From: Methanolobus sp.
Lineage (GTDB): Archaea > Halobacteriota > Methanosarcinia > Methanosarcinales > Methanosarcinaceae
NCBI RefSeq assembly: GCF_016278365.1
Contig: NZ_JADQBZ010000016.1
Coordinates: 1 to 52,542, forward strand
Length of the DNA: 52,542 nucleotides
Reading direction: 5' to 3'
The number at the start of each line of letters is the position of its first letter. The stretch's first letter is position 1. The position numbers and the translations under genes are program-made. The notes below the pieces were generated by a model. That model was given only the letters and a program-made list of their open reading frames with translations. It was not told the origin of the DNA and ran no database searches. This document shows positions 24,616 to 52,542 of this stretch, piece after piece.

Positions 24616-24626
24616 TCAGGCCTTTT

Positions 24627-29520: not shown

Positions 29521-29732
29521 CTACACTGCCAGTAAAAAGAGTAAATATGAAGATGTTGATGACAGTTTTTTCTTTTAATCTTCATCAATTGAGAACACTG
29601 AAAAGGAGGAGAATTGTCTAGGATAGCGTAAGCTCTCCTATAAATAAAGAGAAAAGCAATAAAAACATAAAAATCGGGGATAAAGCGGGACGAGTAACAA
29701 CTTGGATTTATCCGATACTTAAAAAAGAGGGG
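29521..29732. repeat. Spacer holding an inverted copy of 35987-36070
   Basis: Bases 29648-29738 read in reverse align well with 35987-36070: CTCTTTTTTAA, GATAGATCCAAG-like, CCC..GAT.TTTATGTTTT and TTGCTTTTC blocks in the same order. It begins just after the stop of the 59-aa membrane protein gene. Confidence 0.45.
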
Positions 29733-29912: not shown

Positions 29913-30048
29913 AATTACTAGAAGATTAATTAGATATATAATCTTATTTATTGGATAAAAATGAAATTGGATATATCATCGGAGATATATGAAAAACCCA
30001 TCTTAAAACGATAAAACCCTCATTTATACTTGTATTATGGGGATGTGA

Positions 30049-30140
30049 ATGGAATTCAGAGAACTCTCTGATAAACAATGGAAGTTTATTAGACCACGCT
30101 TACCACTACAACCTATTGTCGGAAGGAAACCAGCTCGATG
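30049..30140 (+). pseudogene. IS5-family transposase, N-terminal fragment
   Basis: MEFRELSDKQWKFIRPRLPL then QPIVGRKPARW is the standard start of IS5-type transposases. It breaks off at about 30140 where WD40-coding sequence begins in another frame. Confidence 0.75.
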
Positions 30141-30775: not shown

Positions 30776-30833
30776 CATAGTTTAGTATTAAATTCAAAAA
30801 AGAGAACAGTAAAACAATAGTGTGGTAATATAA

Positions 30834-31610: not shown

Positions 31611-31654
31611 AAGTATTGTAGATTGTATCATGAAGGTTCACAAGAAAAATGGGC

Positions 31655-34600
31655 TTAAAGCCCATTGTTATTCTTTTTCTTATTACCATAGATGAGCCCC
31701 AGACCAATTACAAGCACAATTCCAATTACCCATGGAACGAAACCAAATCCTTTTTCATCGGCGGATTCTTCTACAGGAGCTTCTTCAACCAATACCTGTT
31801 CAGTATTTTCTAAAGCTGGCTCGAATGAGACTTCTTTTACAGGCTCAGAGTCAGTCCCAAACAGTGCATAGAGTGAGAAATGGCTGATATAGGCCGTTGC
31901 TCTGCCGTTCTCCCAGTCGACTGTTGTTTCCAGGGCGATCCAGCCGTCTTCTGAAGTGTAGGTGTAGATGACCGGGGATCTGCCTTCAAGGTCCTGTTGA
32001 TCAAAATCAATAGTTAACATGATATCCTGACTAAAACTTGTCCCAGATGGGCCAAACCTTAAGTAAATACCGGACCATAAAAGCTCCGCAGGGACGTCTT
32101 CAGGCAAGGATGCTGGTGTTGTGACGATTATCCTATCCACAGGATCTCCTAAAGGATCTGTGGCCTTTGTTCCGTTATAGAGAGTAATTGTGGTAGATCC
32201 CGATGATGAGCTAACAATAAAGTCATCTTTTATCTCTCCTTCATTACCTACCGGCAAATAGCTTATGGTCCCGTCCCTTCTTTCTTTGGCCATAGCAGAA
32301 CTGCCAGAGTTAACGGCGAAAGAATCAGATAAAGAATTTTCCAAATCCTTGAAAAGGGAAAAGGTAGCTTCATAAGTTTCAAAGACAGCATCATTTATCA
32401 ACGGATTTGCGTCAACTGCACTAATAGCTGCAGAAACATAATTGTCATTGATATTAAGCACGGTATTTGCAACTTTCACCCACTCGTTTCCATTTAGCCT
32501 GTAAAGGCTAACAGATGATTCGCCTACACTGCTCATGCCGCAATCGTCATAGGAAAATGTAACAGGCATGTTATCCAGATGTGCCGGGACACTGCGGAAC
32601 AAGTCTATATAACCATTTACATTGGTTTTTCCTAACAGGGATGTGTCGTGTGAATCATTGCCTGTCAGGCGGAGGGTATACGCATCAGTTAAGAAGCTAA
32701 GAGATGCATTGTCACAGCTCAATATCAGATCGTTCACTGTAACGTTCTCAGATCCCATAGCAGCAAATTCATATGTGTTATTCAGCACCTGATTTGCCGT
32801 CAAGCTATTATCCGGACTGGAAATTAAAGAAATACCCGATCCGGGTGATATATCTATACCGCTGATCGAAATGCTGTTTAAAGTCACATCATTTTTGACC
32901 GGATCATGTTTTTTAATAATTTTTATCTCTGCCGGGTCTTTCTCAAAAGAGCTCCTGTCAAGAGTTACCCCCCCCGGGACAATACTACTGAAAATATTCT
33001 CATTAGCGATATTTTCTGTCAATATGTTGTTAGCTGACCCATAAAGGTATATCCCCATCAAGGAATTAGAATTAACAGTATTTTGGATCAAAGTGTTATT
33101 ATCAGACCCTCTAAGATGAATTCCGGATTCAGAATTGAAGTTAGCAATGTTTCTGATCAAACTGTTATTGTCAGATGCTTCAAGGTAAATACCTGAGCAT
33201 GTCCATAATATCGAATCTATACAATTGTTATTAGCAGTATTGCCGGTAAAATTGTTATAATTAGATTCATAGACAAAAATACCATCGTAATTACTGTTAC
33301 TAATGACATTATGAATAAAAGTGTTATGTTCAGAATGTTCGACATATATTCCATGGTAATTGTCATCAGTCCTGATGCCATCGACAATATTGGAACTGGA
33401 ATTTATAAGAGAGATAGCATAGTCATTATAAATTGCTGTAACATTTTTTATCATAGAGTTGTCCGTATGTACAAATGCTATACCGTCAAAACCATGTGAT
33501 ATTTCAATGTCTTTCACAGTGACATTGCTAGAGTTCACAACATATACTTGCCCGGCATCATAGGGAATTTCAGCATCTGATACGTTAATCCAATAATAGA
33601 GTGTTTTCCCATTGACAGTGTTACTATCATCGATATAATGAATGAAATGATCTAATTCAGGTCCATAAACACCAAAGTTGAAATCAGATGATATCAGCGT
33701 ATTATTGGTAAAAATATTTTTTGTTGAATCGCCAAAATAAACATTCATTAAATTAGAGTTCAGTCTGTTGTTCATTATAACATTGTCACAAGAGTCATAA
33801 AAGAGCAGACCTATATAGAATCCGGATATCAGGTTGTTTGAAATATTACAGCTTGAAACCGAGCTGACGTAGATGCCATAATTTACATCTGCACTACCAC
33901 TTGTAATGTTAAAACCACTTATACTGATATTATCTGCCGTGAGATTGAATACAGGCTCAGCAGTTGTGGCAGGCTTTATAATAGTTTTTGCGGATCCATT
34001 TTCAGAACGGATCACGATCTCCTTGTCAATCAACATGTTTTCAGTATAGATCCCATCACTGACAATGATCGTATCGCCATTGTTTGCAACGTCCATTGCA
34101 GCGCTTATATTTCCGTATTCTTTATTTTCTCCCACATAAACTTCACGCGGACCATCCACAGTAAATGCTTTGATACAAACGTTCCCAAGGGAACTTCCTA
34201 TATCCTCCCACACAGTTCCGTTCTGACTAATGAAACTTTCACCAGGACCAGAAGTAGCCTGACTTGAATAATTAGCTATTGGAGACTCAACTGGGATCAG
34301 ATATTGATATGAATCATGTTCAAACTCTATAACTATGGAAAAATTGATATTCTCCAGAATAACGATCGGATCTGGTAGTTCAACAGTATGATATCCGGCA
34401 AACTCTTTAGATCCCGTTAGCCCATCCAGACATATGTTGTTGCTTATCGGTGATACAACAGGATCTTCAGGATCAAGATATATAGATATATTATAGTTAG
34501 TGTTAGATGTAGTTGTATAGAAGCCGATAGCTTTAATAGCTTCATCTGTATCGGATCTGAAAATATTAGATGCCCATGCATGTGTTTGATTATATCCTAT

Positions 34601-35686
34601 TTCTTGTGTGTTGCCTAACATATCATATTGATAAATGTTCTTATATACATCCCCGGAATTCCCTTCCAGGAATAAGACATTTGATCTGTTTCCCAGAGAA
34701 TAAGAGTAATATGAAATATAGAAGTAACCTTCATTTGCACCCCAGTTTGTCCCCCAGCTATTCTTTGCTAAAAATGCTCCCTCACCAGGAGGCCTTGATG
34801 ATTCGGGAAAATTATCCATGGAAAAAGAGTCATCCCAGCCGACTAATAAAACAGCATGCCCCCCATCATAATCTGATGTGGGATTGTAATATGTGGTATA
34901 CGGACTTTCTTCATTGCTAGCATTAACCAGCCAGGCAATACTGGTATAAAGTGCACCGTGTTCATAAATTGTTTGCTTTAGAACATTATTGTCAAGTGGG
35001 CCTGATCTAAGAGGAAGAAAATATATGTTGTTGACAGTTATTTGTTTTTCAATGTCATTGGGCGATAGATGATAAGAATGATTGTAGGGATCATCACTTT
35101 CCAAAACAGGTCCATCTCCTCTAGTATAATAAGCAGCTGCCATATAGGCATTACCGCCTTCTTCAGCATCAAAATGATGTTCATATGAACTTCCTGCCCA
35201 GATATTTAAAAGGTTTTTCATATGATTTTCAGAGAAATTCCATTCAATACCAGTTGCCCTAAGTTGGTTTGATTCAAGAGAACCCTGCGAAGCGAATGCC
35301 CAACACGATCCCACAGGACCCTGGTCTTTGACAGGTGTAACATAATTTAAGTCTCGGAGATCAAATGCCACAGGTAAACCTGGATCTATATCTAATAAAC
35401 TGATCTCTGAATTTTTGGGCGGTGTTAGGTGAATATGATCAATAGGAGCGGGAATCTCTCCTAATGCATTTACCCGGTTTGATTCAGAATACATGTTCAG
35501 ATCAACATTAAACCCTTCTGTATTATTCTCTTTAAGGGTTGACATATATGCACTGAATTCAGGATTAAATTCTTCTACATAATATGTACCAGAGGCAGCA
35601 AAAGATATTGTACTAAACATGCAAAAAATGATCAAGCCTATGGAAATTAGTTTCCAAAAAGTATATGTTTTCAATAGATCCACCAT
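31655..35686 (-). CDS. Surface protein: papain-like (C1A) protease fused to NosD beta-helix
   Basis: A 1343-aa protein. The signal peptide is near 6-31 (LISIGLIIFCMFSTISFAAS). A propeptide-like stretch to about 105 precedes a C1A cysteine protease (106-335) with oxyanion Gln122 and nucleophile Cys128 (QGPVGSCWAF), His277 (GGHAVLLVGWDD) and Asn309 (AKNSWGTNWG). A lectin-like beta domain follows (about 340-510), then NosD/beta-helix repeats (about 520-920), beta modules shared with the 898-aa protein at 3148-5844 (LRFGPSGTSFSQ; VIYTYTSEDGWIALET; SHFSLYALFG), and a membrane helix (FVPWVIGIVLVIGLGLIYG) with a basic end. All catalytic residues are present, so a surface protease is likely. ATG at 35686 or TTG at 35674 could start it; the latter has GGTGGATC correctly placed. 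Confidence 0.9.
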   Translation of the reverse strand: MVDLLKTYTFWKLISIGLIIFCMFSTISFAASGTYYVEEFNPEFSAYMSTLKENNTEGFNVDLNMYSESNRVNALGEIPAPIDHIHLTPPKNSEISLLDIDPGLPVAFDLRDLNYVTPVKDQGPVGSCWAFASQGSLESNQLRATGIEWNFSENHMKNLLNIWAGSSYEHHFDAEEGGNAYMAAAYYTRGDGPVLESDDPYNHSYHLSPNDIEKQITVNNIYFLPLRSGPLDNNVLKQTIYEHGALYTSIAWLVNASNEESPYTTYYNPTSDYDGGHAVLLVGWDDSFSMDNFPESSRPPGEGAFLAKNSWGTNWGANEGYFYISYYSYSLGNRSNVLFLEGNSGDVYKNIYQYDMLGNTQEIGYNQTHAWASNIFRSDTDEAIKAIGFYTTTSNTNYNISIYLDPEDPVVSPISNNICLDGLTGSKEFAGYHTVELPDPIVILENINFSIVIEFEHDSYQYLIPVESPIANYSSQATSGPGESFISQNGTVWEDIGSSLGNVCIKAFTVDGPREVYVGENKEYGNISAAMDVANNGDTIIVSDGIYTENMLIDKEIVIRSENGSAKTIIKPATTAEPVFNLTADNISISGFNITSGSADVNYGIYVSSVSSCNISNNLISGFYIGLLFYDSCDNVIMNNRLNSNLMNVYFGDSTKNIFTNNTLISSDFNFGVYGPELDHFIHYIDDSNTVNGKTLYYWINVSDAEIPYDAGQVYVVNSSNVTVKDIEISHGFDGIAFVHTDNSMIKNVTAIYNDYAISLINSSSNIVDGIRTDDNYHGIYVEHSEHNTFIHNVISNSNYDGIFVYESNYNNFTGNTANNNCIDSILWTCSGIYLEASDNNSLIRNIANFNSESGIHLRGSDNNTLIQNTVNSNSLMGIYLYGSANNILTENIANENIFSSIVPGGVTLDRSSFEKDPAEIKIIKKHDPVKNDVTLNSISISGIDISPGSGISLISSPDNSLTANQVLNNTYEFAAMGSENVTVNDLILSCDNASLSFLTDAYTLRLTGNDSHDTSLLGKTNVNGYIDLFRSVPAHLDNMPVTFSYDDCGMSSVGESSVSLYRLNGNEWVKVANTVLNINDNYVSAAISAVDANPLINDAVFETYEATFSLFKDLENSLSDSFAVNSGSSAMAKERRDGTISYLPVGNEGEIKDDFIVSSSSGSTTITLYNGTKATDPLGDPVDRIIVTTPASLPEDVPAELLWSGIYLRFGPSGTSFSQDIMLTIDFDQQDLEGRSPVIYTYTSEDGWIALETTVDWENGRATAYISHFSLYALFGTDSEPVKEVSFEPALENTEQVLVEEAPVEESADEKGFGFVPWVIGIVLVIGLGLIYGNKKKNNNGL

Positions 35687-36384
35687 TTTATTTAAATAAA
35701 TGTTAGATGTGCATTATTACAATAGTAGAGTGCGCTTTATTATAAAGTTATCTATATATTATAAATAATATGATGGTGTCGGATCAAAACCTTCTTTGTG
35801 ACTATTCAGCCTGCTATTATCAGCTTATTGATGTTGATTTCATCGAAAATGATATGTTTGGTTACCAATAAATCAAAAATTAAAAAAGGAATCAATAGCA
35901 ACAATCAAAAGAAATGATACCAAAGAAATTTGCCAATCAGATATTTGATTAAATGGCTGTTGATAATGTTTTTAGTGGGTTGAATTGTTACTCCTCTTTT
36001 TTAAATATATGATAGATCCAAGCGCTTACTGTCCACAAAACCCCAGATCTTTATGTTTTTGTTGCTTTTCACCTTAATTCTAGGATAGCAGCCTAAATTG
36101 ATGACAACATAATGGAAGAAGGCACAAATGAATGCAAAAAGAGAATCGAAATACAGAAAACAGCCCTGTAGAAAACCTATCTAAATCAACATCATCTGGT
36201 CAATTTTGGAAAGGCCGATCAATAATAGTTAGTACATTTTCAATTATTGCCAACTATTGTTTTCTCTGAATAATGAGGGTTTTTACGGAGCTGAAGTTCG
36301 CAATACATAAATAAACTGAACTCCCATAATAATTGATAACAGGTAAACAAATTGTCTGTATCGCAAATAAAGGGGGTTATAGTA
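35687..36384. other. Long gene-free region with a repeat and insertion-sequence scars
   Basis: About 700 AT-rich bases. The promoter of the protease gene should lie near 35690-35770 (TATATATT-like elements). Bases 35987-36070 are an inverted copy of 29648-29738. CTGTAGAAAACCTAT at 36166-36180 recurs at 11507. No gene-like frame was seen. Confidence 0.4.
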
Positions 36385-36924: not shown

Positions 36925-37490
36925 CCTAGTTGTCGGGAAGTCATAGTTTTAATTTTTAATATCAAAAGCTATTCCTTCCCAATAAGTACACTTGCATGCA
37001 GCTACATATCCGAATATTGCCAGTGCATAGACTGAAAGTAAAAATACCAGTAATCTCCCTTCAATTGTTTTTGGCCAGTACTAACTACCAATCGTTACCA
37101 CGATCATGCCTGTTTACCAGAGTGCATCTCCGCAGGAGCTGAAGTTAGGTTACAGGCATCCTTCCTCAATTTATCGTAAACCTCCCCGGTCTAAAGACGG
37201 GGGAATGCATATCGGGATACTTCTTCAAATAATATTCCTCTTGAAACCGGTCTAAGTTATGCATGTTTCCTGAAAAAGATACTAAGCAACTCTTATTCTG
37301 ATTGGAAGAGGAGAAGATTTTCTAAGGGTACATTGCATTTTATAAAAAAATACAGAGGCAGACTAACATTTGCTCTAAATGCTCGGTTAGAGAAAGGTTC
37401 CCTGTGGATTCAATTACCCACAAGATGTTGAAGGGAACCTTATGATCAAATGATCGTCAGCCATTATATGGGAGGGAGTTGATGTTACGA
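36925..37490. other. Gene-free region with IS605-like hairpin and an orphan reading frame
   Basis: About 560 bases. CCCCGGTCT/AGACGGGG (37184-37202) forms a hairpin of the IS605-end type (TTTAG loop on the minus strand). Bases about 37270-37440 hold a plus-strand frame (FSKGTLHFIKKYRGRLTFAL then NARLEKGSLWIQL) without a start; it looks like decayed coding DNA of unknown family. No intact gene seen. Confidence 0.4.
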
Positions 37491-39716
<2,226 letters not shown>

Positions 39717-39760
39717 TTATATCGATTGATGTTGGTGACAATGGGAGACTTGAAAGATTG

Positions 39761-39990
39761 CTAGAAGAACGTCACATCACTTTTCATGCTTGCGTGCCTG
39801 AGCTCATCAGCAGCATGCTGTATAAGTTCGGCTGCAGCCTCCTCTTTCATAGGGCCCTTGATGACCTTAGCTCCTACCCAGTACTGGTAATATGCAAGCC
39901 ATTCATCTGCAAGAGCTTCGTTAGTGATTCTATCAGATCATTGACGTCTACTCCGAGATTTTCGAGCAATTGGATTCCTTTAGTTCCCAT
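39761..39990 (-). pseudogene. Ferritin-like (Dps/bacterioferritin-type) gene, frameshifted
   Basis: It starts MGTKGIQLLENLGVDVNDLI, shifts frame near the ESLT segment, and continues in another frame as NEALADEWLAYYQYWVGAKV then IKGPMKEEAAAELIQHAADE, containing the di-iron-type Glu and ELRHA residues of ferritin-like proteins. It ends early (SDVTFF), so the second half of the four-helix bundle is missing. Its place between prx and katG fits an iron-detoxifying partner that has been lost. Confidence 0.75.
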
Positions 39991-40022
39991 TTTTGCCACC
40001 TGTTTTTTCAATGATACGATAT

Positions 40023-40694
40023 TTAGGATTGTTTCCTGAAGCACATGAACCAGTCAAGGCAGTATGTGTTTGCATCCTTGGTCTCAACTCTCTCCTTTGC
40101 GACTCCGCATGATCCCGGCGGCGGAATGATGACATCTTCCCCAGGCTGCCAGTTAGCCGGTGTTGCAACACCTTCAGCGTCAGATTTCTGCATGGCTTTA
40201 AGCAGTCTCATAACCTCGTCCATGTTCCTTCCGTTTGAGAGCGGGTAGTAGAGTATAGCCCTTATCTTGGCCTTCGGGTCCATGAAGAATACCGCTCTCA
40301 CAGCCTGGGTATCGGAAGCACTTGGCTGGAGCATGCCGAATTTCTTTGCAACGGTCATCTTGAGGTCTTCAATGACAGGGAAAGTCACCTCTACATTCTT
40401 CATCCCTTTGTATTCTATCTTCTCCTTGATGGTACGAAGCCAGGCGATATGTGCATAGATGCTGTCGATGGACAATCCAATGAGTTCACAGTTCAGCGCT
40501 TTGAAATCCCCTTGCATGCTTGCAAATGTCATGAACTCTGTTGTGCATACCGGCGTGAAATCTGCCGGGTGACTGAACAGGATTACCCATTTGCCTTTGT
40601 AGTCTTTTGGGAAATTGATCTCTCCCATGGTTGTCTTTGCTGTGAATGATGGTGCGTCTTCGCCTATAAGTGGCATTGTGCATACTTCTTCCAT
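40023..40694 (-). CDS. Peroxiredoxin, archaeal Prx6-type
   Basis: A 223-aa thiol peroxidase. The peroxidatic Cys50 lies in ADFTPVCTTEF, with conserved Thr and the downstream Arg of the active site. Cys212 and Cys218 in TYCLDWFMC have the six-residue spacing of the decameric archaeal enzymes such as Aeropyrum Tpx. The gene begins two bases after the Fur-family stop, so the two are co-transcribed. It reduces hydrogen peroxide and alkyl peroxides. Confidence 0.93.
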   Translation of the reverse strand: MEEVCTMPLIGEDAPSFTAKTTMGEINFPKDYKGKWVILFSHPADFTPVCTTEFMTFASMQGDFKALNCELIGLSIDSIYAHIAWLRTIKEKIEYKGMKNVEVTFPVIEDLKMTVAKKFGMLQPSASDTQAVRAVFFMDPKAKIRAILYYPLSNGRNMDEVMRLLKAMQKSDAEGVATPANWQPGEDVIIPPPGSCGVAKERVETKDANTYCLDWFMCFRKQS

Positions 40695-40696
40695 AT

Positions 40697-41074
40697 TTAA
40701 TCCTCCCTACATTCTTTACAGAATCCGTAAAAGTTCGTATCTGTAGTCTCTACTTCAAAGTCTTCTATATCCCCCGCTATCTTCAGCGAGTAATCTGTCA
40801 GTTCCTCTGATTCGTAATCAGATATCCTCCCACAACCTATGCATATGATGTGGTGGTGCGGTACAAGATTTGCCTCAAACCTGGAAACTCCCTTGATATT
40901 CACCTCTTTGACAAGGCCTTTCTCGGCTAGGAACCTCAGATTATTATATACAGTGGCTTTGCTGATCCTGGTCAGTTTTTTCCTCACGCCTTCGTACACA
41001 TCATCGACGGTTGGATGCCCGTCGAATTCCTTGAGGAACTCTAGGATCTCTATCCGCTGATTAGTGTATTTTAT
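40697..41074 (-). CDS. Fur/PerR-family metalloregulator with no canonical start codon
   Basis: A Fur-family repressor. The winged helix (KYTNQRIEILEFLKEFDGHP; KATVYNNLRFLAEKGLV) is followed by the metal site PHHHIICIGCG, and the Cys-x-x-Cys CKEC near the end completes the structural zinc site with CIGC. The family N-terminus begins at codon ATA (41074) in the row ATA AAA TAC ACT; no ATG, GTG or TTG exists between there and an upstream stop. The first GTG in frame (40999) would delete the first third of the winged helix. Either ATA initiates, or the gene has lost its start. Directly upstream of prx, with katG in the same cluster, it is probably a peroxide-sensing PerR. Confidence 0.8.
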   Translation of the reverse strand: MKYTNQRIEILEFLKEFDGHPTVDDVYEGVRKKLTRISKATVYNNLRFLAEKGLVKEVNIKGVSRFEANLVPHHHIICIGCGRISDYESEELTDYSLKIAGDIEDFEVETTDTNFYGFCKECRED

Positions 41075-41840
41075 GCCTTCGGTATCCGTCTGTGATCCTT
41101 CCTTCTCTGTTTGTCTTTACCGGTTGTGCTTATTTTTAACAAATCCTTTTTAACAGTAAATACTAATTAATACTTTTTATTATTTAAAGTTAATTACTGA
41201 TAAACAGCTCATACTTGTTCGGATAAAAACAAAGCTAAAATATGCCACAAGTACTCTCAGTGATGTTCAAAAAGAAAAGATGAAGACTAGTGGCAGATCA
41301 AAGCCATTCGATCCTACTGTCAAGCTGATGCAGCATCCGGACTGTTTTTGCGCATGTGATGTATACGTAAAAGGAAAGGGCATCATGTGGAGTTTTGATG
41401 CCCTTGGGAGGCTCCTGTCTTCAATTCCACATTATTCACCAAGTAAACCACCTCGTCTGGGTTGATGGAGTTGTTTAGAGACTTTAAGGGGATTTTGGGT
41501 TCAAGGTGGGAAATTGGGAATAATGTTTTACTTATTCACAGGAGGGGGCAAAATAATGTAATAGGGTGCCCTAAACATTCTTTTATTCACTCCCCGTGTC
41601 CGATTTAATATCTTATATGATATGATATACCCTTATCGAAACTACCTTCTGACATAGTAAAGTAATTGCACAGTATAGTAAACATATCATTAAATTAAAT
41701 CTAAATAATGATGTATCGACATTGTTTATTATACTTTTTGATATCCTACAATTCTTGTACTTGTGGGATTCTCCCGCATACTTCTAAAAATATTATCTGA
41801 GTATATATATACCTATCGAAATTCTCTTTCTCATAATGAA
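41075..41840. other. Gene-free region upstream of the redox cluster
   Basis: The first 100 bases hold the probable promoter of the Fur/PerR operon (TTTAAATAATAAAAAG-type AT-rich sequence). A plus-strand frame at 41280-41465 (FDPTVKLMQHPDCFCACDVY then VKGKGIMWSFDAL) has gene-like composition but no recognisable family or ribosome binding site. Several TATATATA-like elements follow. Confidence 0.4.
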
Positions 41841-43000: not shown

Positions 43001-44380
43001 TCAGTTCAGTATGTTCATCCATCCCTGTACAAGTATGACCAGAACAATTAAAGGCAGTAAATATCGTACATAGGGGCTGACCCACCTGGGGATTTTCCCT
43101 CCTATTCCTGTATTTGCTTCTTCTAAAAACCTGTCCCATCCCCAGCCTCTTTTTAGTGTACAGAACATTACGATCGAGATCGCACCTATGGGGAGGATAT
43201 TGTTGCTGAAAATGAAATCCTCCAGGTCCAATATCCCACTGCCGGGGCCAAATGGCTGTATACCGCTTAAAGGACCAAAGCTCAATGCACACGGGAGCGA
43301 AAGGATGAATATGGCGATGGCATTAATTATAGATGCCTTCCTGCGGTTCCATTTCCACTCATCGATAGTGAAGGCCATTATATTTTCAAATATTGCAATA
43401 ACCGTTGACATAGCAGCAAAAGATAGGAACGCGAAGAATAGGAAACCCCACGCTTGTCCTCCGGCCATCTGGTTGAATATGTTGGGGAGGGTCACAAAAA
43501 GAAGCTGAGGTCCTGAGCCGGGTTCAATCCCGAAGGCAAAAGCTGCAGGAAATATAGCAAGTCCTGCAAGCAAGGCAACAGAAGTATCAAGCGCAACCAC
43601 ATTAATGGCTTCGCCGGGGAGGGATCTCTCCTTCCCTATATAGCTGCCAAATATAGCCATTCCTCCGGCACCTGCACTTAGGGTGAAGAAAGCCTGTCCC
43701 ATGGCTGCGGAGATTGCGTCCCTGTCAATAAGACTGAAGTCGGGTTCAAGATAAAAACTAATTCCTGCGGAAGCTCCCGGAAGTGTCACAGATTTAAAGA
43801 CCAGCAGCAGCAAAATCACAAAAAGACCTATCATAAGATACTTGCTTACCTTCTCGGCTCCTTTGCGAAGTCCTTTTGAGCATACCCAGAACCCGGTAAA
43901 CACGACAAAGGCCATCCAGAAAACAATTTCTATGGTGTTACCGAGGAAAGCCCCGAAAAAAGAAGCTATCTCCTGAGGTCCAAGCCCGTTAAAGTTTCCT
44001 GCCATTGAATAATACATATATGCAAGTCCCCAGCCCGCTACAGTAGTATAGAACATAACGAGCAGCACGTTCCCTATGATCCCCATGTATCCGAAAACAT
44101 GCCATTTACTGCCCGCAGGCTCCAGTTGTCTCATGGCCCCGGCAATGTTCAGCTTACCTGCTCTACCTATTGAGTATTCCATGATGAGGATTGGCAGCCC
44201 AAGTAATACGAGAAATGCGAGATAGATCAGGACAAAAGCCGCCCCTCCGTATTGGCCGGTAACATAAGGGAAACGCCATATATTACCAAGGCCTATGGCG
44301 CATCCGGCTGATATTAATATAAAGCCGGTCCTGCTTGCCAGTTGTTCCCTTTCCATGTTGAAATGTTCTTTGCCTGTCAT
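43001..44380 (-). CDS. Neurotransmitter:sodium symporter (SNF) family transporter
   Basis: A 459-aa membrane protein with about eleven helices in the LeuT fold. The first helix (GFILISAGCAIGLGNIWRFP) contains the unwound Gly-rich sodium and substrate site and the NIWRFPY signature. The sequence LFFAFLSFAAMSTVIAIFEN resembles the helix-8 sodium site. Bacterial and archaeal members import amino acids with Na+. It ends at WMNILN, an eleven-helix form like many prokaryotic members. Convergent with the truncated corrinoid gene. Confidence 0.92.
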   Translation of the reverse strand: MTGKEHFNMEREQLASRTGFILISAGCAIGLGNIWRFPYVTGQYGGAAFVLIYLAFLVLLGLPILIMEYSIGRAGKLNIAGAMRQLEPAGSKWHVFGYMGIIGNVLLVMFYTTVAGWGLAYMYYSMAGNFNGLGPQEIASFFGAFLGNTIEIVFWMAFVVFTGFWVCSKGLRKGAEKVSKYLMIGLFVILLLLVFKSVTLPGASAGISFYLEPDFSLIDRDAISAAMGQAFFTLSAGAGGMAIFGSYIGKERSLPGEAINVVALDTSVALLAGLAIFPAAFAFGIEPGSGPQLLFVTLPNIFNQMAGGQAWGFLFFAFLSFAAMSTVIAIFENIMAFTIDEWKWNRRKASIINAIAIFILSLPCALSFGPLSGIQPFGPGSGILDLEDFIFSNNILPIGAISIVMFCTLKRGWGWDRFLEEANTGIGGKIPRWVSPYVRYLLPLIVLVILVQGWMNILN

Positions 44381-44527: not shown

Positions 44528-45275
44528 ATGATAGGAATACTTCAGGCAGTTGGGGTACCTTTTGGTCCAAAATCCATTCTCAAATAAGGAGGACTGACAA
44601 GAGGAAATATGGCTTGACATCCTAAATGTCCATTATGGAAAAGTAAAACCTAAAGATATTGAAGAGAAGCACTCTAACCTCTATGCTATTTCAAAGCTTG
44701 CTGTTAGCACTCCTAATGTATGGAACAGGTTCAAGAAGCTCAATAAAGGCAAACCTTGGAAGGAGCAGATCAAGCCTTTCAATTTCTGTATGGTTGGCTT
44801 TCAGGCAATAGAGGAAGATGGAAAAGCAATCAAACCTCTAGCTCCTTATTGTGACGATCCTCAAACAATAGTGCATGAGCCATTCATTGACTATGAAACA
44901 GGAGAGATCATGCAAGGATCACACTATTTCAAGTCGTTGAGTAAAACCATATTACAGTATGCAGAGCACCCTGAACATAAGTTTGAAGGGGATATTGGCA
45001 TATTGGAGAGAAAACATGTCCATGCAGATGGCATTCTCTACATCGGAAAAGAAGCAAACAATATTGATGAAGAGGAATTAGAGCTTCAGAGAGCCCAGAC
45101 ATTCATTGATGAGGAATCCATTAAACAGAAAATATTGGCTTTGACTCCAAAAGAAGCAAGAGAATATGGAATAATGCAAAGGAGCACCCTCAAGCGAATG
45201 AAGGATAGGATTCAAAGTGATGGAAGATTCAATTTCAGGACAAAAGAGGTGAGGAAATTGGTAAGTAGATTTTAA
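44528..45275 (+). pseudogene. Gene of unknown family with early stop and frameshift
   Basis: ATG at 44528 begins MIGILQAVGVPFGPKSILK, then a stop; the frame resumes at about 44597 (EIWLDILNVHYGKVKPKDIE) and stays open to 45275. The open part (44790-45275, 161 codons from its first ATG) contains VHEPFIDYETGEIMQGSHYF, GDIGILERKHVHADGILYIG and a helix-turn-helix-like end (LTPKEAREYGIMQRSTLKRM). The continuity of sense across the break shows a single former gene of about 245 codons. I do not recognise the family; the tail suggests nucleic-acid binding. Confidence 0.6.
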
Positions 45276-45562
45276 CACTTACCTTTTCTTTCATTCTAAT
45301 TTTTTAAAATAGTAACAAACGTCTCATAGTAGACAAAAATACGATTCAAGGTTGGCTATGCGTAGAAGATGTTGAAAACCTTCATATCAAAAGCTATGAT
45401 TGTTTTTAGTTAAAAAATATATTGTTAATCAGAATTATTTATCTCATCAAAGTAAAAAAAGTACTCTATTTATATATTATTAATAAAAACATGTGCAATT
45501 ATTTGGTATGTGATAACATATAAATAATAAATGCTTCCATTTTAATTATTGGTGAGATATAA
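45276..45562. other. AT-rich spacer
   Basis: No gene. A TTTATATATTATT element at about 45468-45480 and a GGTGAG ribosome binding site at 45551 serve the DUF4386 gene. Confidence 0.4.
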
Positions 45563-46276
45563 ATGACAAATCAAATTGTTGATGATATATCTTTACGTAA
45601 AGTTGCAATAATTGCCGGTTTAAGTTATCTTATCATTTTTGTACTTGGCATTGTAGCTAATTTTGTTGTTCTTATGAATCTGTTTGTACCGGAAAATGCT
45701 GCCACAACCGTAAACAACATCACGGCTAATATGAGCCAATTACGCCTAGGAATTCTGGGTTTCATAATCATGGTTATTTTTGATGTGGTTGTGGCTTGGG
45801 CACTCTATATTTTTCTGAAACCTGTAAGCAATAGTCTTTCATTACTTGCAGCTTGGTTAAGACTGGTGAATGCAACCATTTTTGGAATAGCTCTATTCAA
45901 TTTGTTCAGTGTTCTGCGCCTTTTTGGAGATGCCAACTATTTGACACAGCTTAGTACAGGTCAGTTACAGATTCAGGTAATGTCGCTTCTACATGCTTTC
46001 AACGACACGTGGTTGATAGGATTAATATTTTTTGGCCTTCATCTTGCTGTGCTTGGTTATCTGATTATTATCTCAGGATATATACCTAAATTTATAGGCA
46101 TATTGTTAGTAATCGCATCTATTGGATATTTGATTGATAGTTTTGCACATTTCGTCCTGAGTAACTATGCTGATTATGCAGGGATATTTATGATGATAGT
46201 TGTCGTGCCAGGAGTCATTGGAGAATTGTCATTTACGTTATGGCTTTTGCTAAAAGGACGAAAACTTGAGTTATAA
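45563..46276 (+). CDS. DUF4386 membrane protein
   Basis: A 237-aa protein with six hydrophobic segments: LRKVAIIAGLSYLIIFVLGI opening, then LGILGFIIMVIFDVVVAWAL, LAAWLRLVNATIFGIALFNL, LHAFNDTWLIGLIFFGLHLA, a paired segment, and a last helix. The AAWLRLVNA and HLAVLGYLI segments match the DUF4386 family of unknown function, common in Actinobacteria, Bacteroidetes and methanogens. Clear GGTGAG ribosome binding site. Confidence 0.85.
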   Translation: MTNQIVDDISLRKVAIIAGLSYLIIFVLGIVANFVVLMNLFVPENAATTVNNITANMSQLRLGILGFIIMVIFDVVVAWALYIFLKPVSNSLSLLAAWLRLVNATIFGIALFNLFSVLRLFGDANYLTQLSTGQLQIQVMSLLHAFNDTWLIGLIFFGLHLAVLGYLIIISGYIPKFIGILLVIASIGYLIDSFAHFVLSNYADYAGIFMMIVVVPGVIGELSFTLWLLLKGRKLEL

Positions 46277-46450
46277 AAAACTTATAAGGAATTCTGTGGT
46301 AGACAATTAGTCCAATTAACCACAAACTTTTCTTTTTTCTATCTGTTGGGTATTGAGATTTTACAAAATAGATGCAGTATTAATTATCGTTGCGTTTTTT
46401 GTAGATTACTATATCCCTCCCTTTCTGTGCGAGGAATGAAACTCGAATGC
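46277..46450. other. Probable junction between host DNA and virus module
   Basis: About 170 AT-rich bases between a chromosomal-type gene and the first viral gene. No tRNA or clear direct repeat was recognised. GCGAGGAATGAAACTCG-like sequence at 46418-46436 is a weak inverted repeat beside the viral genes. Confidence 0.35.
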
Positions 46451-46657
46451 TTATACTAACTTCTTCAGTTTAAGCTTCTCAATCACCAGCTCGGCAGTCT
46501 CCTCCAACTGTTTCTTCTTGAGATCGTTCTGCATCTTCGAATAATATTCCGCAATGAAGTCCACAGCTCGGCTCTTGTTGCAATCCTGCTCTCTCATCAC
46601 CCGATGAAGTACTGCGGTCGTATTCTTGCTCACGGTTGCATAAAGTTTTGGTCTCAT
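46451..46657 (-). CDS. Ribbon-helix-helix-like small viral protein
   Basis: A 68-aa basic protein: MRPKLYATVSKNTTAVLHRV, then EQDCNKSRAVDFIAEYY and a Lys-rich helix. A leading strand, two helices and a basic tail fit a ribbon-helix-helix DNA-binding domain. The ATG follows AGGTGAATAC and sits four bases after the terminase stop, so it is co-transcribed. A longer frame exists to 46969 but overlaps terL in a shadow frame and is not used. It might regulate the packaging operon. Confidence 0.6.
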   Translation of the reverse strand: MRPKLYATVSKNTTAVLHRVMREQDCNKSRAVDFIAEYYSKMQNDLKKKQLEETAELVIEKLKLKKLV

Positions 46658-46661
46658 GTAT

Positions 46662-48005
46662 TCACCTGGGTCTTGTTCTGATAAGTGCTGACAGGTCCAG
46701 CTCCTGTGCTCCAAACCTCGATCTGCTAAGCTCTGAGAGAGCCCACACGAGAGCATCCACGCGGTCCGGGCTACTTCCCTCTCCCGGGACCCAGTCACAC
46801 ATCTGGTCCTCAAGAGCTGAAAAGGATCCCACATGATGTACCTTGCCCTGCTCGTACAGAGCACTGATAGGCTCGGCTCTGGTCTGCTTTCCCCGGCTGG
46901 CCCTAACCGACTTATAGGAAACATTCGGATCGATCGTTCGAAGCGTATATTCCACGAGCTCCCCTCCATTGTTCACTTCCCCGATCACCCGATCTGCAGA
47001 GTGTTTGTAGTAGGCTGCAATTACCTCCTGCGCCCATTTTTTCGGTGTTGAGTGGATGGTATGGTCCCCCAGCACATAGTACTCCCCACGCTCATCCACA
47101 GCTGCAACAACAATGCCTGTGTCATCTGCGGATGAGGAGGACGTGACCGCCGGGTCCACGCCCACAACTATCCTGACCAGTTCAGGAGTTTTCGTGACCT
47201 TGTTGTTCTCGATCACATCTCTTGTCCATAGTGCATCCGGGTTGTCGTCCAGGATCTCTGCGTTGAGCTCCTGCCTACCCAGCCGGGTCCCTTCGTATCT
47301 GCTGATGATCACGTCGATGAAGGCAGGTGCCAGGTTGGACAGGTTCTCGTAGGTAGACCCTCTTGTCACGTGGGTGCTGGAATCGTTCAAGAGTGCTTTG
47401 ACAAGTGGAATTGGCCGGGGAGTTGTGGTGATGGCAGCTCTTGGATCATCCCCCGCCCTTAGGCCAAACTGCAGCATATCCCAGGTCCTGTCAGGATATT
47501 TCCATGCGGCTATCTCATCACACCATGCAGTGTCGTGCTGTGGACCTCTCAGCCTATCCGGCTCCTCGGCACTGAAAAGCAAAGCATTCGCACCGTTGGG
47601 CCAGGTGAGCCTGCGTTTGGATGGTTTATAGACTGGCCGGTTCCAAGGTGGGCAAACTGACAATATTCCAGATTCTCCCTCCACCATGGTATCCCTGGCG
47701 TCTGCTGCTGTTGGGGCCACCAGGGCTATCCTGCGAGCCTTGCCGGACTCTACCCTGTCACGGACCCATTCGGCTCCAACTCGTGATTTACCCCAGCCTC
47801 GCCCCGAGAGCACCAGCCAATACTGCCAATTTCCTTCAGGTGGCAGTTGGTTGGACCGGGCCCAGAACTTCCAGTCGTATTCTAGCTTTGGGAGCTCCTC
47901 GTCGCTGATATCACTCAAGATCTTCTGGCGCTCTGAGCCTGGCAGCAATGCTATTGATTCTGCTAGTGATTCTCTCTCTTGTTTCATCTGTATTGATCTC
48001 GACAT
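46662..48005 (-). CDS. Terminase large subunit
   Basis: The DNA-packaging motor of a tailed virus, 447 aa. The ATPase half has Walker A (LVLSGRGWGKSR, 65-76), the LVAPTAADARDTM segment, and Walker B with catalytic Glu164 (DTAWCDEIAAW). The nuclease half has an RNase H-like fold with Asp284 (VVGVDPAVTS), Glu343 and the late Asp pair (SSPDRVDALVWAL). It overlaps terS by 95 bases from the first ATG (or 77 if Met7, at 47987, starts it). All catalytic residues are present, so the protein should be functional. Confidence 0.93.
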   Translation of the reverse strand: MSRSIQMKQERESLAESIALLPGSERQKILSDISDEELPKLEYDWKFWARSNQLPPEGNWQYWLVLSGRGWGKSRVGAEWVRDRVESGKARRIALVAPTAADARDTMVEGESGILSVCPPWNRPVYKPSKRRLTWPNGANALLFSAEEPDRLRGPQHDTAWCDEIAAWKYPDRTWDMLQFGLRAGDDPRAAITTTPRPIPLVKALLNDSSTHVTRGSTYENLSNLAPAFIDVIISRYEGTRLGRQELNAEILDDNPDALWTRDVIENNKVTKTPELVRIVVGVDPAVTSSSSADDTGIVVAAVDERGEYYVLGDHTIHSTPKKWAQEVIAAYYKHSADRVIGEVNNGGELVEYTLRTIDPNVSYKSVRASRGKQTRAEPISALYEQGKVHHVGSFSALEDQMCDWVPGEGSSPDRVDALVWALSELSRSRFGAQELDLSALIRTRPR

Positions 48006-48345
48006 TGTTCTGGGTCATATTGATCTCAACTTCCCGCCGACCGAACTCAGCAGGACAACTGCGCTCAAGCCACCATGCTGCAGCCTGCCAGGTATGGGGT
48101 GCTGCTTTCTGGATGATGGCAACATTCCTGGCAATGGCCTCTGCCCTGGCCTTTTTTGTCTGCAGGTAGAAATCATGATACTGCCCCGTTGTTTCTTGTT
48201 CTCCGCGCTTCATCCAGTCGTAATAGGTGGTAGGAGCGATGCCCACAGCATCACAGGCATGGATCACAGGGACACCGGCCTTAAGCAGTTTGATGAGCGG
48301 TTCGGATACTTCAGCTATTATTAAGCTGCCCTTTTGTCTTCCCAT
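47911..48345 (-). CDS. Terminase small subunit
   Basis: A 144-aa DNA-recognition subunit. The helix-turn-helix is at about 25-50 (GVPVIHACDAVGIAPTTYYD), then a helical oligomerisation core (QTKKARAEAIARNVAIIQKA; TWQAAAWWLERSCPAEFGRR), and a C-terminal arm (INSIAARLRAPEDLE). The WLERxxPxxFGRR motif is typical of TerS from many tailed phages. Position just before terL supports the call. Confidence 0.85.
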   Translation of the reverse strand: MGRQKGSLIIAEVSEPLIKLLKAGVPVIHACDAVGIAPTTYYDWMKRGEQETTGQYHDFYLQTKKARAEAIARNVAIIQKAAPHTWQAAAWWLERSCPAEFGRREVEINMTQNNVEINTDETRERITSRINSIAARLRAPEDLE

Positions 48346-49550
48346 GTGAATATCTCTCCATTTCGTTTCAGTTCATTGTTGCCGGTCAGATTGACATATC
48401 TCTGAAGGATGACATCGACATACCGAGGATCAAGTTCAACTCCGTAGCAGACACGATTGAGTTGATGTGATGCGATCAGTGTCGTGCCAGAGCCGCCGAA
48501 CAGGTCAAGGACAATATCCCTCTGCCGGGACGAATTACCGATGGCATTTGCAACCAGGACCACCGGCTTTGTGGTGGGGTGAAGCTTAGAGGCTGAAGGC
48601 CTGTCAAAGTTCCATAGGTCAGACTGTTTCCTGTCCTCCACCTGGCACAGCCTGGGAGCTCCTTCCTTCCAGCCATACCATATTGGCTCGTACTGGGTGT
48701 GGTAGTCCTTCCTGGAGAGGACGAGCCTGTCCTTGGCCCAGATTATCGTGCTGCTCCAGTGGTAGCTGTTCTCCTTGAGGGCCAGCATCATGTTCCCCCA
48801 TTCCTGAGCCGACATCACAACGTAGGTCGGGCATCCGTCCTTTGAGAACCGATTCATGCACGCAAAGCTTGCCATCATGAATTCTTTGAAGTCCTCTGTT
48901 TCCATTGCATCGTTCAGGATACTTCGCTGCTTCCAGGAAGGATGCTTTGTTGCACCATAGTTCACATTCCAGGGCGGGTCAGTGAATATCAGATCGGCCT
49001 TTTGCTCACCCATGAGCTTTGCAACCTGGTCCGGGTCAGTGCTGTCCCCGCAGAGCAATCTGTGATCTCCCATCTCCCATATATCTCCGAGAACTGTCAC
49101 AGGCTCTTCAGGTGGCTCAGGTGGTTTGTCCTCAATGACCTCGACCGGTGTTATCGACCCGAGCAGGCTGTCCACATCATCCAGCGTGTAACCGGTGGCT
49201 TCAAGGTCGAAGTCCGGGATCTCCGCGATCTCGTGCAGCAGCCTTGCAAGCATCTCAGTGTCCGTTTCTGCCAGTTCAGCCAGCCTGTTATCGGCAATCA
49301 CATAGGCCACAGCCTTCTCATAAGGCAGGTCGAGGGCTATTACGGGAACCTCGGTAAATCCCAGCTCAAGGGCTGCCTGGAGCCTTGCGTGGCCTGCTAC
49401 GACCATATTGTCTGATGCAATTAGGATAGGATTGGTCCAGCCGAACTCTCGTAATGACTTCTTAAGCATGGTCAACTGGCTTTCAGGATGCCTTTTCGGG
49501 TTGTTGGCAAATGGTCTCAACTCGCCCACTGGCATAGTAATGACTTGCAT
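48321..49550 (-). CDS. ParB-like/DNA (cytosine-N4 or adenine-N6) methyltransferase fusion
   Basis: A 409-aa protein. Residues 1-110 are a ParB/sulfiredoxin-like nuclease fold domain (VGELRPFANNPKRHPESQL; VVAGHARLQAA). Residues 150-409 are a beta-class amino-methyltransferase with DPPW (191-194) and the AdoMet-binding FGGSGTT (351-357). Such fusions are widespread in tailed phages and protect virus DNA from restriction. Target sequence unknown. Coupled to the zinc-ribbon gene (stop TAA directly precedes its ATG) and overlaps terS by 25 bases. Confidence 0.93.
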   Translation of the reverse strand: MQVITMPVGELRPFANNPKRHPESQLTMLKKSLREFGWTNPILIASDNMVVAGHARLQAALELGFTEVPVIALDLPYEKAVAYVIADNRLAELAETDTEMLARLLHEIAEIPDFDLEATGYTLDDVDSLLGSITPVEVIEDKPPEPPEEPVTVLGDIWEMGDHRLLCGDSTDPDQVAKLMGEQKADLIFTDPPWNVNYGATKHPSWKQRSILNDAMETEDFKEFMMASFACMNRFSKDGCPTYVVMSAQEWGNMMLALKENSYHWSSTIIWAKDRLVLSRKDYHTQYEPIWYGWKEGAPRLCQVEDRKQSDLWNFDRPSASKLHPTTKPVVLVANAIGNSSRQRDIVLDLFGGSGTTLIASHQLNRVCYGVELDPRYVDVILQRYVNLTGNNELKRNGEIFTWEDKRAA

Positions 49551-49838
49551 TTATTCGCACCTTTTTCCAATGTTCGAAAGATATATCTTTTTCATATGAG
49601 TTCGGGTTTTTCTGCCGATGTTGCCGGTCTTCGAATTATCCACTGTTTTTTGAACCACAGGCAAACTTGAGGCCTTCTCGCCTAGACTGACAGGAATCCT
49701 GGATGGCCCGAGCTTCTCCCCCCTGACCAATTCCGCCACTTCTTCACATCTGGAGCAGGTGACCTTATCAAGCGGTTCTGTGACGAAGGTCCTCTCCTTG
49801 CAATACAGGCACATGCAGGATACTGGAGCAAAGTTCAT
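49551..49838 (-). CDS. Small zinc-ribbon viral protein
   Basis: A 95-aa protein. Cys-rich SCMCLYCKERTF and TCSRCEE form a zinc ribbon near the N-terminus; the rest is basic and contains no known domain. ATG at 49838 follows GGGTGG. The stop abuts the methyltransferase ATG. Probably binds nucleic acid or acts in early-to-late switching; unknown. Confidence 0.65.
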   Translation of the reverse strand: MNFAPVSCMCLYCKERTFVTEPLDKVTCSRCEEVAELVRGEKLGPSRIPVSLGEKASSLPVVQKTVDNSKTGNIGRKTRTHMKKIYLSNIGKRCE

Positions 49839-50008
49839 GCTACCACCCTTTGAATAGCTGGGACTTTGTACCCTGCCCGACATGTCTTACTTTTCTCTAA
49901 CTCCTTATATATGGAAAAATAAGACATGTATAGTATAATAGGAAATACACGCAAGAAAACAATTCTCAAAATAACCCGGACAAGCCGGGCACAGTGCAAG
50001 ACGGTCAT
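49835..50008 (-). CDS. Possible 57-aa membrane-like ORF between primase and zinc-ribbon genes
   Basis: A frame starting ATGA on the primase stop and ending ATGA on the next start encodes a hydrophobic stretch (VRVILRIVFLRVFPIILYMS). The overlaps at both ends look like real gene coupling, but the operator-like repeat and TATA box at 49880-49929 lie inside it, and no ribosome binding site was seen. It may be only an open frame across a promoter. Confidence 0.3.
   Translation of the reverse strand: MTVLHCARLVRVILRIVFLRVFPIILYMSYFSIYKELEKSKTCRAGYKVPAIQRVVA
49880..49929 (-). promoter_or_regulatory. Inverted repeat bracketing a TATA box: putative repressed late promoter
   Basis: ACATGTCTTACTTTTC (49880-49895) pairs with GAAAAATAAGACATGT (49914-49929), 16 bases with one mismatch. 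The 18-base spacer contains TTATATAT (49905-49912). Transcription leftward would start near 49880, about 40 bases before the zinc-ribbon ATG. A dimeric repressor or activator binding both arms would cover the TATA box. Confidence 0.6.
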
Positions 50009-52317
50009 AGTTTCACCTGCTCGGTCTTGAGCCTTATCACGGGTGCTGCAAAAGCAAAACCGTGTTTCCATGCTCCTGGCAGCTCGTATGTATGTATCCT
50101 TACGCCATTCTCATCGATCGGCCTTCTTGCATACACCTCGTACTTGTCCACCGATTGTGTCAACCCGGTCGTTGTCGAGGGTATCTTTCCGGTGTCCACA
50201 TCATTGGCCAGGGCCCAGCGGAAGATCGAATCAAGCAGGTCTTCCTTTGCGACGTTCACGTTCACACCCTTTCTCTCATGATCGAGACCTTCCTGAAGGA
50301 ACTGGTATATCGGATCAGAATTGTAGCTCCACATCTCACGAACCTCACCTGCAGAACTTCTGACCACCAGGCCGTTACGTTTGATCTCTATCATTTTCTT
50401 TATCACTCTGTATAAAAAGCCAGATAGGTTTTCAGCAGCGAACATCTTCACAGTGAAATCGGGATCCTTCTCAAACCAGTAGGGAAAGAACACGTATTCC
50501 CACCTGTCCCAGAAGGCAGTGTCGTTCTTGACCTTCTTATCAAAAGACGGCGGTGCATTGCATGTGAAAACATGTAGTGCTCCAAGTGGGGCCATATATG
50601 CCTGTTTACCCTTCTTCTCGATAGAGTGCCACCGCTTGCCAGTAAGTGTTTTGAACGTCCCGGTCTCTGACATGGGGATGTCACTCATATCATCAAAGAT
50701 ATTGAGTGTCTTCCCTTCCAGATTTGCCTTGGCGAATCGGTTCTCGCTGAGTGACTGCAGCGACTCTGCGCTTATGTTCTCCATCCCAAAGACCCGTTCA
50801 AGTAACTGAAGGTAAGTGGATTTGCCGGCGTTGGGGTCGCCCTGGATAAGATACGCTTTCTTGTACGGTTCACTTGCCATCTGCAGGAGTGCCTGTGCCG
50901 GGATCTGATACAATATGTCAATATGTTCGGGAGCCACGTACTCTGTTACCATCTTTTCGTGGATCTCATCAGACATGGTGCTCTGATCAAAGTCGGCGTG
51001 GAGCTTGTAATTGAACATATACCTGGGGTCATGTGACACCAGGTCCACATCGCCTGTATCAAAGCAAAACTTGACCACACCGTTGTTGACAGGGATCATA
51101 TTGTCTATCTGGTTGAAAGGATACTCGTTGTAGGGTGTCTCATACGTCAGATAATGAATGATCTCACTGGTGACCCTCGACAGGGGCCCGGTGTATCCCA
51201 CGGTCTTTGCTATGTTCTGTATCTCAGACTTGATGGCAACAAGCCCTTCCACATAGCATCCTTCCTGGTAGATGTAAAGCTGCTCTGCATAGCTTATCAC
51301 AAGCAATTTCTTTGTGACACCCGCTGCAATACCTGCCAGGTTCAACTTTATATTGGCCTTGCCATTTGCTCCTATATCGACCGAATAGTAGTTCCTGTAC
51401 TCGTCCTCGACTGTGTCCGATCTGCTGGGGCTATGGAACTGGGAAAGCACGGGGTCGGCTTTTATCGAGGCTGTCTTTGCAGTTGCGCCAGGATCGATCT
51501 TTTTAAGTTGATACGCACTGGTCTCCCGATCGAACTCGTTACCAAACGCCATCATGCAGAACAGCATCATCTGCTTCTGGTCAGCGCCGTTTGCCATAAG
51601 CTCTGCACAGATGTGCAACATCCTCTGCCTTCCTTCCATGTCCCTGAACACGCTAAGGTCATGATACATAGGATTGGGTATCTTGTTACCATCTGCATCC
51701 TTTCCGAGGTCATCTTTTACAAAAACGGACTCAAAGAACTCTTTAAAGGCCGGTCTGCTCCTGTTCAGTGTCATCCGGAGCTCCTGGTAGGTGTTCAGCC
51801 ATTTCATGAAGCTGGATATCACCTTGTTGGGGATCTGCGGCCTTTTTGTGATATCTCCGTCCATCTTGTAAACACTGCCAGCCTCATGTATCGACGGGCT
51901 CATGACGACGTTGCCAGCCTCTCCAAGCAGATCTATGCCCAGTGGTTTGGCGTGCTTTAGCTCCAATGCCGGGTTGAACCTGAACAACCAGTGCCATCTA
52001 CCAGATGTCCGGTGCTGTTTCACCCAGTCAGATGTATCAACGCCTTTTAAGATGTCGTCCCACATGCCCTTGATATACCAATCAACATCTATTACCATAA
52101 GATCAGATGCTTTTCCACACACTGCACCGATGTTATAGTCCTTCTTGACAAAATAGTTGTCAAGCTCCTCATCAGAAGGGTTTGTGGCCAGCTTCTGCCA
52201 TCTGGAAAGCAGTGGACGCTTTCCTGGAGATGGCTTGTGGTCCTTTGGTGAGGAAAGTGGGTGAACGATTATCCCCGCTGCCCTATATTTTTTGGCAGCA
52301 TCTATGATCTCTTCCAT
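50005..52317 (-). CDS. Primase-polymerase/superfamily 3 helicase replication protein
   Basis: A 770-aa virus or plasmid replication initiator. The N-terminal bifunctional primase/polymerase domain (about 1-165) has the paired Asp77 and Asp79 in MVIDVDW and His109 in SGRWHWLF. A linker (about 170-460) is followed by a D5/P4-type helicase: Walker A GDPNAGKST (493-501) and FDDMSDIPMSE as Walker B. The protein should unwind and prime at the origin. ATG at 52317 follows GGAGGGG; the frame is open to the window end but that part is a different gene in another frame. Confidence 0.9.
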   Translation of the reverse strand: MEEIIDAAKKYRAAGIIVHPLSSPKDHKPSPGKRPLLSRWQKLATNPSDEELDNYFVKKDYNIGAVCGKASDLMVIDVDWYIKGMWDDILKGVDTSDWVKQHRTSGRWHWLFRFNPALELKHAKPLGIDLLGEAGNVVMSPSIHEAGSVYKMDGDITKRPQIPNKVISSFMKWLNTYQELRMTLNRSRPAFKEFFESVFVKDDLGKDADGNKIPNPMYHDLSVFRDMEGRQRMLHICAELMANGADQKQMMLFCMMAFGNEFDRETSAYQLKKIDPGATAKTASIKADPVLSQFHSPSRSDTVEDEYRNYYSVDIGANGKANIKLNLAGIAAGVTKKLLVISYAEQLYIYQEGCYVEGLVAIKSEIQNIAKTVGYTGPLSRVTSEIIHYLTYETPYNEYPFNQIDNMIPVNNGVVKFCFDTGDVDLVSHDPRYMFNYKLHADFDQSTMSDEIHEKMVTEYVAPEHIDILYQIPAQALLQMASEPYKKAYLIQGDPNAGKSTYLQLLERVFGMENISAESLQSLSENRFAKANLEGKTLNIFDDMSDIPMSETGTFKTLTGKRWHSIEKKGKQAYMAPLGALHVFTCNAPPSFDKKVKNDTAFWDRWEYVFFPYWFEKDPDFTVKMFAAENLSGFLYRVIKKMIEIKRNGLVVRSSAGEVREMWSYNSDPIYQFLQEGLDHERKGVNVNVAKEDLLDSIFRWALANDVDTGKIPSTTTGLTQSVDKYEVYARRPIDENGVRIHTYELPGAWKHGFAFAAPVIRLKTEQVKL

Positions 52318-52367
52318 CAAACCCCTCCGCAATTCTCTTTTCTCATCTGTTTGACATCGACTATCAT
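52317..52367 (-). CDS. Sixteen-codon overlapping ORF before the primase gene
   Basis: ATG at 52367 overlaps the upstream gene's stop (ATGA), and its TGA overlaps the primase ATG (TGATG). It encodes MIVDVKQMRKENCGGV. It may be a translational coupling leader: the ribosome would terminate on the primase start. Confidence 0.35.
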   Translation of the reverse strand: MIVDVKQMRKENCGGV

Positions 52368-52542
52368 GCCCGCACCTCCACACCACTGCTGCTGATACCC
52401 ATATCCGCGATCTTTGTCCGGTGGCCAACGGACCTGCTGCGAAACGCACTGATGCGAATGTTGGTATATGCTGGCTTGCGGTCCACAATCTCGGTCTTCC
52501 AGATCTCTTTTGCGCAAAACTGGCTCTTGTCACCAAATGGTC
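52364..52542 (-). CDS. C-terminal part of an upstream viral gene, cut by the window edge
   Basis: The frame reads FGDKSQFCAKEIWKTEIVDR, then KPAYTNIRISAFRSR and IADMGISSSGVEVRA to a stop. Only the last 58 codons are visible, and the family is not recognisable. Basic residues and position before the primase suggest a DNA-metabolism protein. Confidence 0.5.
   Translation of the reverse strand, partial: PFGDKSQFCAKEIWKTEIVDRKPAYTNIRISAFRSRSVGHRTKIADMGISSSGVEVRA

Follow-up and report, generated by a model that had tools for sequence, protein, structure and literature searches.

In a Methanolobus genome of 19 contigs, one contig (C8, 52 542 bp, analysed here in full as the window) carries virus genes that run on one strand and stop at position 46451, with no structural genes after them. 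What kind of element has a terminase but no head or tail? An earlier note on this DNA offered three answers: a satellite that uses another virus's capsid, capsid genes that lie elsewhere or were deleted, or an unusual gene order. Family scans and a portal search uphold its description of the module. The reading favoured here, at a probability of roughly three in four, is that the window holds the early and packaging half of a tailed provirus, with a cargo hotspot after the small gene that follows the terminase, and that the structural half has been lost or separated.

The module (46451–52540) lies wholly on the minus strand. Its first gene encodes a RecA-like ATPase, of which the C-terminal 58 codons remain (residues 275–332; 52367–52540; 91% identity to the homologue on contig C18). 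A Prim-Pol/DUF5906 primase-helicase of 772 aa follows (50005–52323; Pfam PF09250, 3.7e-14; PF19263, 1.5e-19). It is 96% identical to copies in G021 (C80) and G026, with an omega of 0.14, and this type has no relative in IMG/VR. Three primases occupy this position in otherwise similar elements: Prim-Pol, a DnaG-like protein with a helicase part, and AEP-TOTE (window 50005–52323, L007:11653–14772 and L008:234–3131 were compared). Next come a small protein of 110 aa (49551–49883), conserved at the same place in relatives, and a ParB-like domain fused to an N6/N4 DNA methyltransferase (48321–49550; phrog_498, 3.9e-138; PF01555, 4.1e-26). The small terminase subunit TerS (47911–48345; phrog_4102, 2.6e-27) precedes the large subunit TerL (46662–48005), which matches PF03237 and PF17289 (Terminase_6N, 1.4e-27; Terminase_6C, 1.4e-18) as well as phrog_979. 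Directly after TerL lies a gene of 68 aa (46451–46657), which is this frame and not the 172-aa ORF. It holds the same place in at least 12 Methanolobus loci and in the viral contigs L111 and L113. Its label as a ribbon–helix–helix (RHH) gene is a reading of the sequence, and Pfam gives a sub-threshold DUF7692 match only. Of the gene identities first proposed, primase-helicase, ParB-methyltransferase, TerS and TerL are thus confirmed by family scans; the zinc ribbon, which shows Cys pairs only, has no family match, and the RHH gene stays below threshold.

Four genes, those for TerL, TerS, methyltransferase and primase, have open frames and evolve under purifying selection when compared with relatives. 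TerL is intact, as had been noted, and its omega of 0.06–0.09 indicates strong constraint. By itself an intact TerL is no argument for a satellite; it is compatible with recent loss of the structural genes.

The right side of the element is truncated by the data. The terminal 55 bases of the contig (52488–52542) are identical to the first 55 of contig C2, and such an exact overlap marks a k-mer break in a repeat. At the start of C2 lies a decayed copy of this element, and the end of C8 at 52542 is an assembly break inside the element. It cuts the RecA-like gene at codon 275. The 5' part of this gene is missing for both the C8 and the C2 copy; residues 1–274 are found in this genome on C18 only, where the gene is whole. 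The upstream part common to the C8 and C2 elements is likewise absent from the assembly. Completeness is estimated at 99.9%, a figure that does not cover collapsed repeats. Because the assembly drops such repeats, the element's own upstream part among them, the loss of the missing structural genes falls short of strict proof.

What normally follows this module is seen directly in relatives. TerL is 78–93% identical in other Methanolobus genomes and 84–85% identical in the IMG/VR contigs L111–L113; against the TerL of Methanolobus (pro)viruses the identity is 85–93%. The order TerS-TerL-RHH, which the earlier note proposed to seek in other methanogens, is present in Methanolobus relatives, and a putative portal, head and tail genes come after it. 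Downstream of the TerL-RHH pair, G004, G005, G010, G016, G022 and C18 carry in the same orientation a gene of 65 aa, then a putative portal and a Mu-F-like head protein. Genes for a cement protein, HK97-type capsid and tail come next in G004, G005, G016, G022 and C18; in G010, where TerL is reduced to a fragment, cement, capsid and tail genes were not seen. A tape measure and an integrase are among the late genes of relatives with the TerS-TerL-RHH order. Family matches of the structural genes include PF04454 for the capsid (1.1e-14), PF04233, PF22758 and PF10145. The putative portal, assigned by position, has no family match, and a PDB sequence search with it and with TerL gave none either. 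Structure models were poor (mean pLDDT 43 for the capsid, 38 for the putative portal) and were left unused.

These elements resemble archaeal head-tailed (Caudoviricetes) proviruses in TerS-TerL, portal, Mu-F-like head protein, cement, HK97-type capsid, tape measure and, in complete relatives, a tyrosine integrase by a tRNA. They differ in that the portal lies up to 42 kb of cargo away from TerL, and the window copy has no structural genes at all. The copies in C18, G004 and G005 end with an integrase beside a tRNA; a search for matching att repeats at the ends of these three proviruses found none. The window copy is truncated where the contig ends. No description of the family was found in the literature searched, which covered few subscription papers, and a survey of archaeal proviruses (PMC11705971) does not name it.

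A domesticated or split gene-transfer-agent locus would account for several genomes in which the terminase lies apart from the structural genes, or in which just one of the two is present, and the nearest non-methanogen TerL proteins do lie in alphaproteobacterial chromosomes. The integrase beside tRNA genes, however, identifies the complete copies as elements that integrate, IMG/VR contains related contigs, and the distribution is patchy, with TerL in 12 of 27 genomes of the genus. Such a locus is most improbable.

The gene order of the family is indeed unusual, as had been suggested, in that 0.35–42 kb of variable cargo separates TerL-RHH from the portal. The distance is 350 bp in L113 and 640 bp in L111. 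In proviruses it is 2.15 kb (G004), 5.8 kb (G005), 6.5 kb (G010), 6.7 kb (two G016 copies), 7.8 kb (G016, C17) and 11.0 kb (G022), and it reaches 42.3 kb in C18, the second provirus of the window's own genome. The gap is compact in the two viral contigs and holds cargo in the other copies. A second cargo site separates the Mu-F-like head gene from the head gene after it (L044:4687–10476; the same gap in G005, G022, G016 and C18), and its genes differ per provirus. On C29 of G021, an insertion of about 1 kb parts TerL from RHH (L037:2327–3418), with a 30-bp overlap in the flanking matches.

The window runs straight into DNA of this kind. First after the RHH gene is a DUF4386 protein (45563–46276, plus strand; PF14329, 2.6e-63), which had been taken for a host-type neighbour; it does adjoin the module, but presumably opens a cargo zone rather than a plain flank. 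An uncharacterized protein (44790–45275, plus strand), also presumed cargo, shows 86% DNA identity to G002 C1:59136–59777, and the match (window 44654–45295) lies in G002 6 kb from an RHH copy that lacks TerL. A presumed cargo gene for an SNF-family symporter comes next (43001–44380, minus strand; PF00209, 1.4e-54). Between 42.4 and 46.4 kb just one gene has a cargo match elsewhere. The clearest block is a cassette of Fur-like, peroxiredoxin-like and KatG genes (37222–41437, minus strand; KatG at 37491–39689; PF00141, 3.1e-70). This 4.2-kb cassette is 92.7% identical to G026 C1:15038–19255 and, slightly extended, 91.7% identical to G013 C7:34809–39137. The KatG block of G013 stands directly after TerL-RHH, and in both G026 and G013 a truncated RHH 3' end marks its limit. 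The window's match stops about 18 bp into the truncated RHH copy and then switches to sequence with a hairpin interpreted as IS200/IS605-like. A surface-protein segment (31858–35873, minus strand) is 98% identical to G026 C1:29332–33348, near the KatG cassette there too. This cassette homology, observed directly, rules out a simple chromosomal flank, and the host-like genes after RHH probably belong to the cargo zone of the provirus.

Farther from the module the picture changes. The stretch at 20100–31800 is rich in multi-copy (IS-like) matches and is a probable rearrangement zone, and 17505–20074 corresponds to a distant chromosomal place in G026 (C1:272398–274972). No structural gene occurs in the 46 kb of contig after the RHH-like gene, and no portal homologue was matched anywhere in the window. 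The earlier note had named a deletion scar after terL as a telling sign; the window shows no scar that holds remnants of portal or tail genes.

The structural genes of this genome are on C18. The assembly holds a single portal (C18:142813–144030) and a single capsid gene (C18:136343–137209), both inside the C18 provirus. The earlier note had proposed to look for them past 52542: the contig ends there and the overlap with C2 is 55 bp. That the capsid genes lie elsewhere or were deleted is the best reading for the window copy, with the sole portal and capsid on C18.

Could the window copy nevertheless be a complete provirus, its structural genes lying past position 1 or in missing sequence, after a cargo zone of more than 46 kb? 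The C18 cargo zone before the portal measures 42 kb, part of the window element is absent from the assembly, and the contig starts in a 100-bp repeat. The assembly, estimated at 99.9% complete, nonetheless holds a single gene each for portal and capsid; had there been a second, near-identical set, C18 would be broken at that place, and it is not. The window moreover crosses repeat-rich DNA and then DNA that maps elsewhere in G026. A complete provirus is unlikely on this evidence.

The genus offers a wider view. Of 27 genomes, 12 have TerL and 15 the portal, and only one of the 12 with TerL lacks both portal and capsid. This is G026, a complete genome, and its orphan module is visibly decaying, with the primase gene split and an internal deletion in the methyltransferase. 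Orphan and structure-linked copies are mixed in the TerL tree, and no separate orphan group is formed. Compared across genomes, the pattern agrees more with provirus decay than with a satellite lineage standing on its own.

A satellite that packages its own DNA, with its own terminase, into the capsid of another virus is very unlikely. Intact TerL and TerS under purifying selection agree with it, and complementation in trans is conceivable, since the C18 provirus has structural genes but a TerL frameshifted by a 2-bp deletion (L007:8508–9831) where the window TerL is intact. The selection signal, though, comes down from viral ancestors and does not single out the window copy. The nearest relatives are whole tailed (pro)viruses with the same gene order and linked structural genes; orphans are rare and partly decayed; the window has no defined second end, with a contig break on one side and cargo on the other. 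Like capsid-stealing satellites of the PICI/P4 type, the window has replication and packaging genes without structural genes; unlike them it lacks defined ends, a helper-interference gene and a conserved stand-alone lineage, and no integrase was found in it. The satellite proposal is set aside as unsupported, on the relatives, the TerL tree and the absence of ends.

The favoured provirus reading can be set out in steps. (i) The module (RecA-like, primase, methyltransferase, TerS, TerL, RHH) would be the early and packaging half of a temperate tailed Methanolobus virus. (ii) The DNA between RHH and portal in this virus family forms a cargo hotspot. (iii) Cargo would grow through recombination between copies of the RHH 3' end. 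(iv) The window copy would have lost, or been split from, its structural half, probably through rearrangement in the repeat-rich stretch at 20–32 kb: since DNA below 31.8 kb is rich in multi-copy sequence and 17.5–20.1 kb matches a distant place in G026, we infer that the break occurred there. (v) The remnant would be unable to form particles alone and is presumably not mobilized.

The third step rests on a repeat. A unit running from about codon 34 of the RHH gene to about 70 bp beyond its stop (46383–46559, minus strand) was traced with nhmmer, and a genus-wide DNA search gave 47 places in 18 genomes. A profile built from the RHH gene plus its 3' tail picks up truncated copies, every one of which retains the 3' part. 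They are interspersed in the cargo between RHH and portal in G005, G015, G016, G022, C18 and others, and also occur in a small number of cargo islands that have no terminase nearby. The unit that follows KatG leads on to hemerythrin in G026 and to other genes in G013; the unit before hemerythrin has KatG ahead of it in G026 and URO-D on C18. Of 37 unit pairs with a common flank, leaving out those where both are full RHH genes, 23 share the left flank only, 14 the right only and none both. Random anchors inside cargo behave otherwise: 215 of 325 flank-sharing pairs have both flanks in common. The contrast is large, even though the control, which sets unique anchors against repeated units, is imperfectly matched. 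RHH units thus act as junctions in the cargo.

How cassettes move is suggested by the units themselves. They have no conserved consensus fold, and identity changepoints, where interpretable, are scattered across the unit. Homologous recombination is therefore favoured over a fixed-site recombinase, and circles of cargo plus a truncated RHH end may enter by single crossover. The exact unit pattern has no match in IMG/VR. In a bolder form of the idea, for which we see an outside chance, the RHH 3' end would be the point at which DNA docks in a gene-capture system carried by the virus, in which such circles enter by single crossover (site-specific or homologous) and build arrays, integron-like in function without integron parts. 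Archaeal proviruses would then host cassette arrays built by gene capture.

Prophage cargo hotspots (P2/P4, PMC9122126) and integrons, archaeal ones included (PMC9668308), are already known. The Methanolobus site shares with the P2/P4 hotspots a fixed position between conserved viral genes and changing accessory genes. It differs in cargo, where metabolic and stress-related genes predominate (KatG, peroxiredoxin, prismane, URO-D, hemerythrin, transporters), and in the truncated 3' end of the adjoining viral gene that recurs between cassettes. Integron arrays likewise consist of gene blocks parted by homologous repeats and shuffled at them; the Methanolobus repeat, in contrast, has no conserved fold, its breakpoints are scattered, gene orientation is mixed and no integron integrase was recognized, the only integrase examined being the provirus Phage_integrase. 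An integron/attC structure was rejected on fold and breakpoints.

One false lead, an archaeal satellite, is thereby removed: a terminase beside host genes is no evidence of one. In its place stands a family of tailed methanogen proviruses in which a large zone of shuffled cargo fills the space from terminase to portal; through it, genes for stress response and metabolism would pass between Methanolobus species. Truncated gene ends that keep recurring provide a testable handle on how proviruses collect host genes.

Three further observations concern the family. Outside methanogens, the nearest TerL proteins are mostly alphaproteobacterial (42–61% identity; L059–L108), a likeness that suggests old cross-domain transfer or a common viral lineage. 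The C18 provirus adjoins, as read from translations, an apparent CRISPR array and type I-E-like cas genes (C18:196500–206500; end of L007, L010). In the RHH-portal gap of L111 (IMGVR_UViG_3300034521_000267), two 37-bp CRISPR repeats enclose one 36-bp spacer (L111:11592–11701), for which a target search found none. The repeat is identical to a chromosomal repeat of the Methanolobus genome G009 (31 copies), and the arrangement resembles the virus-borne mini-CRISPR arrays described in PMC6858448.
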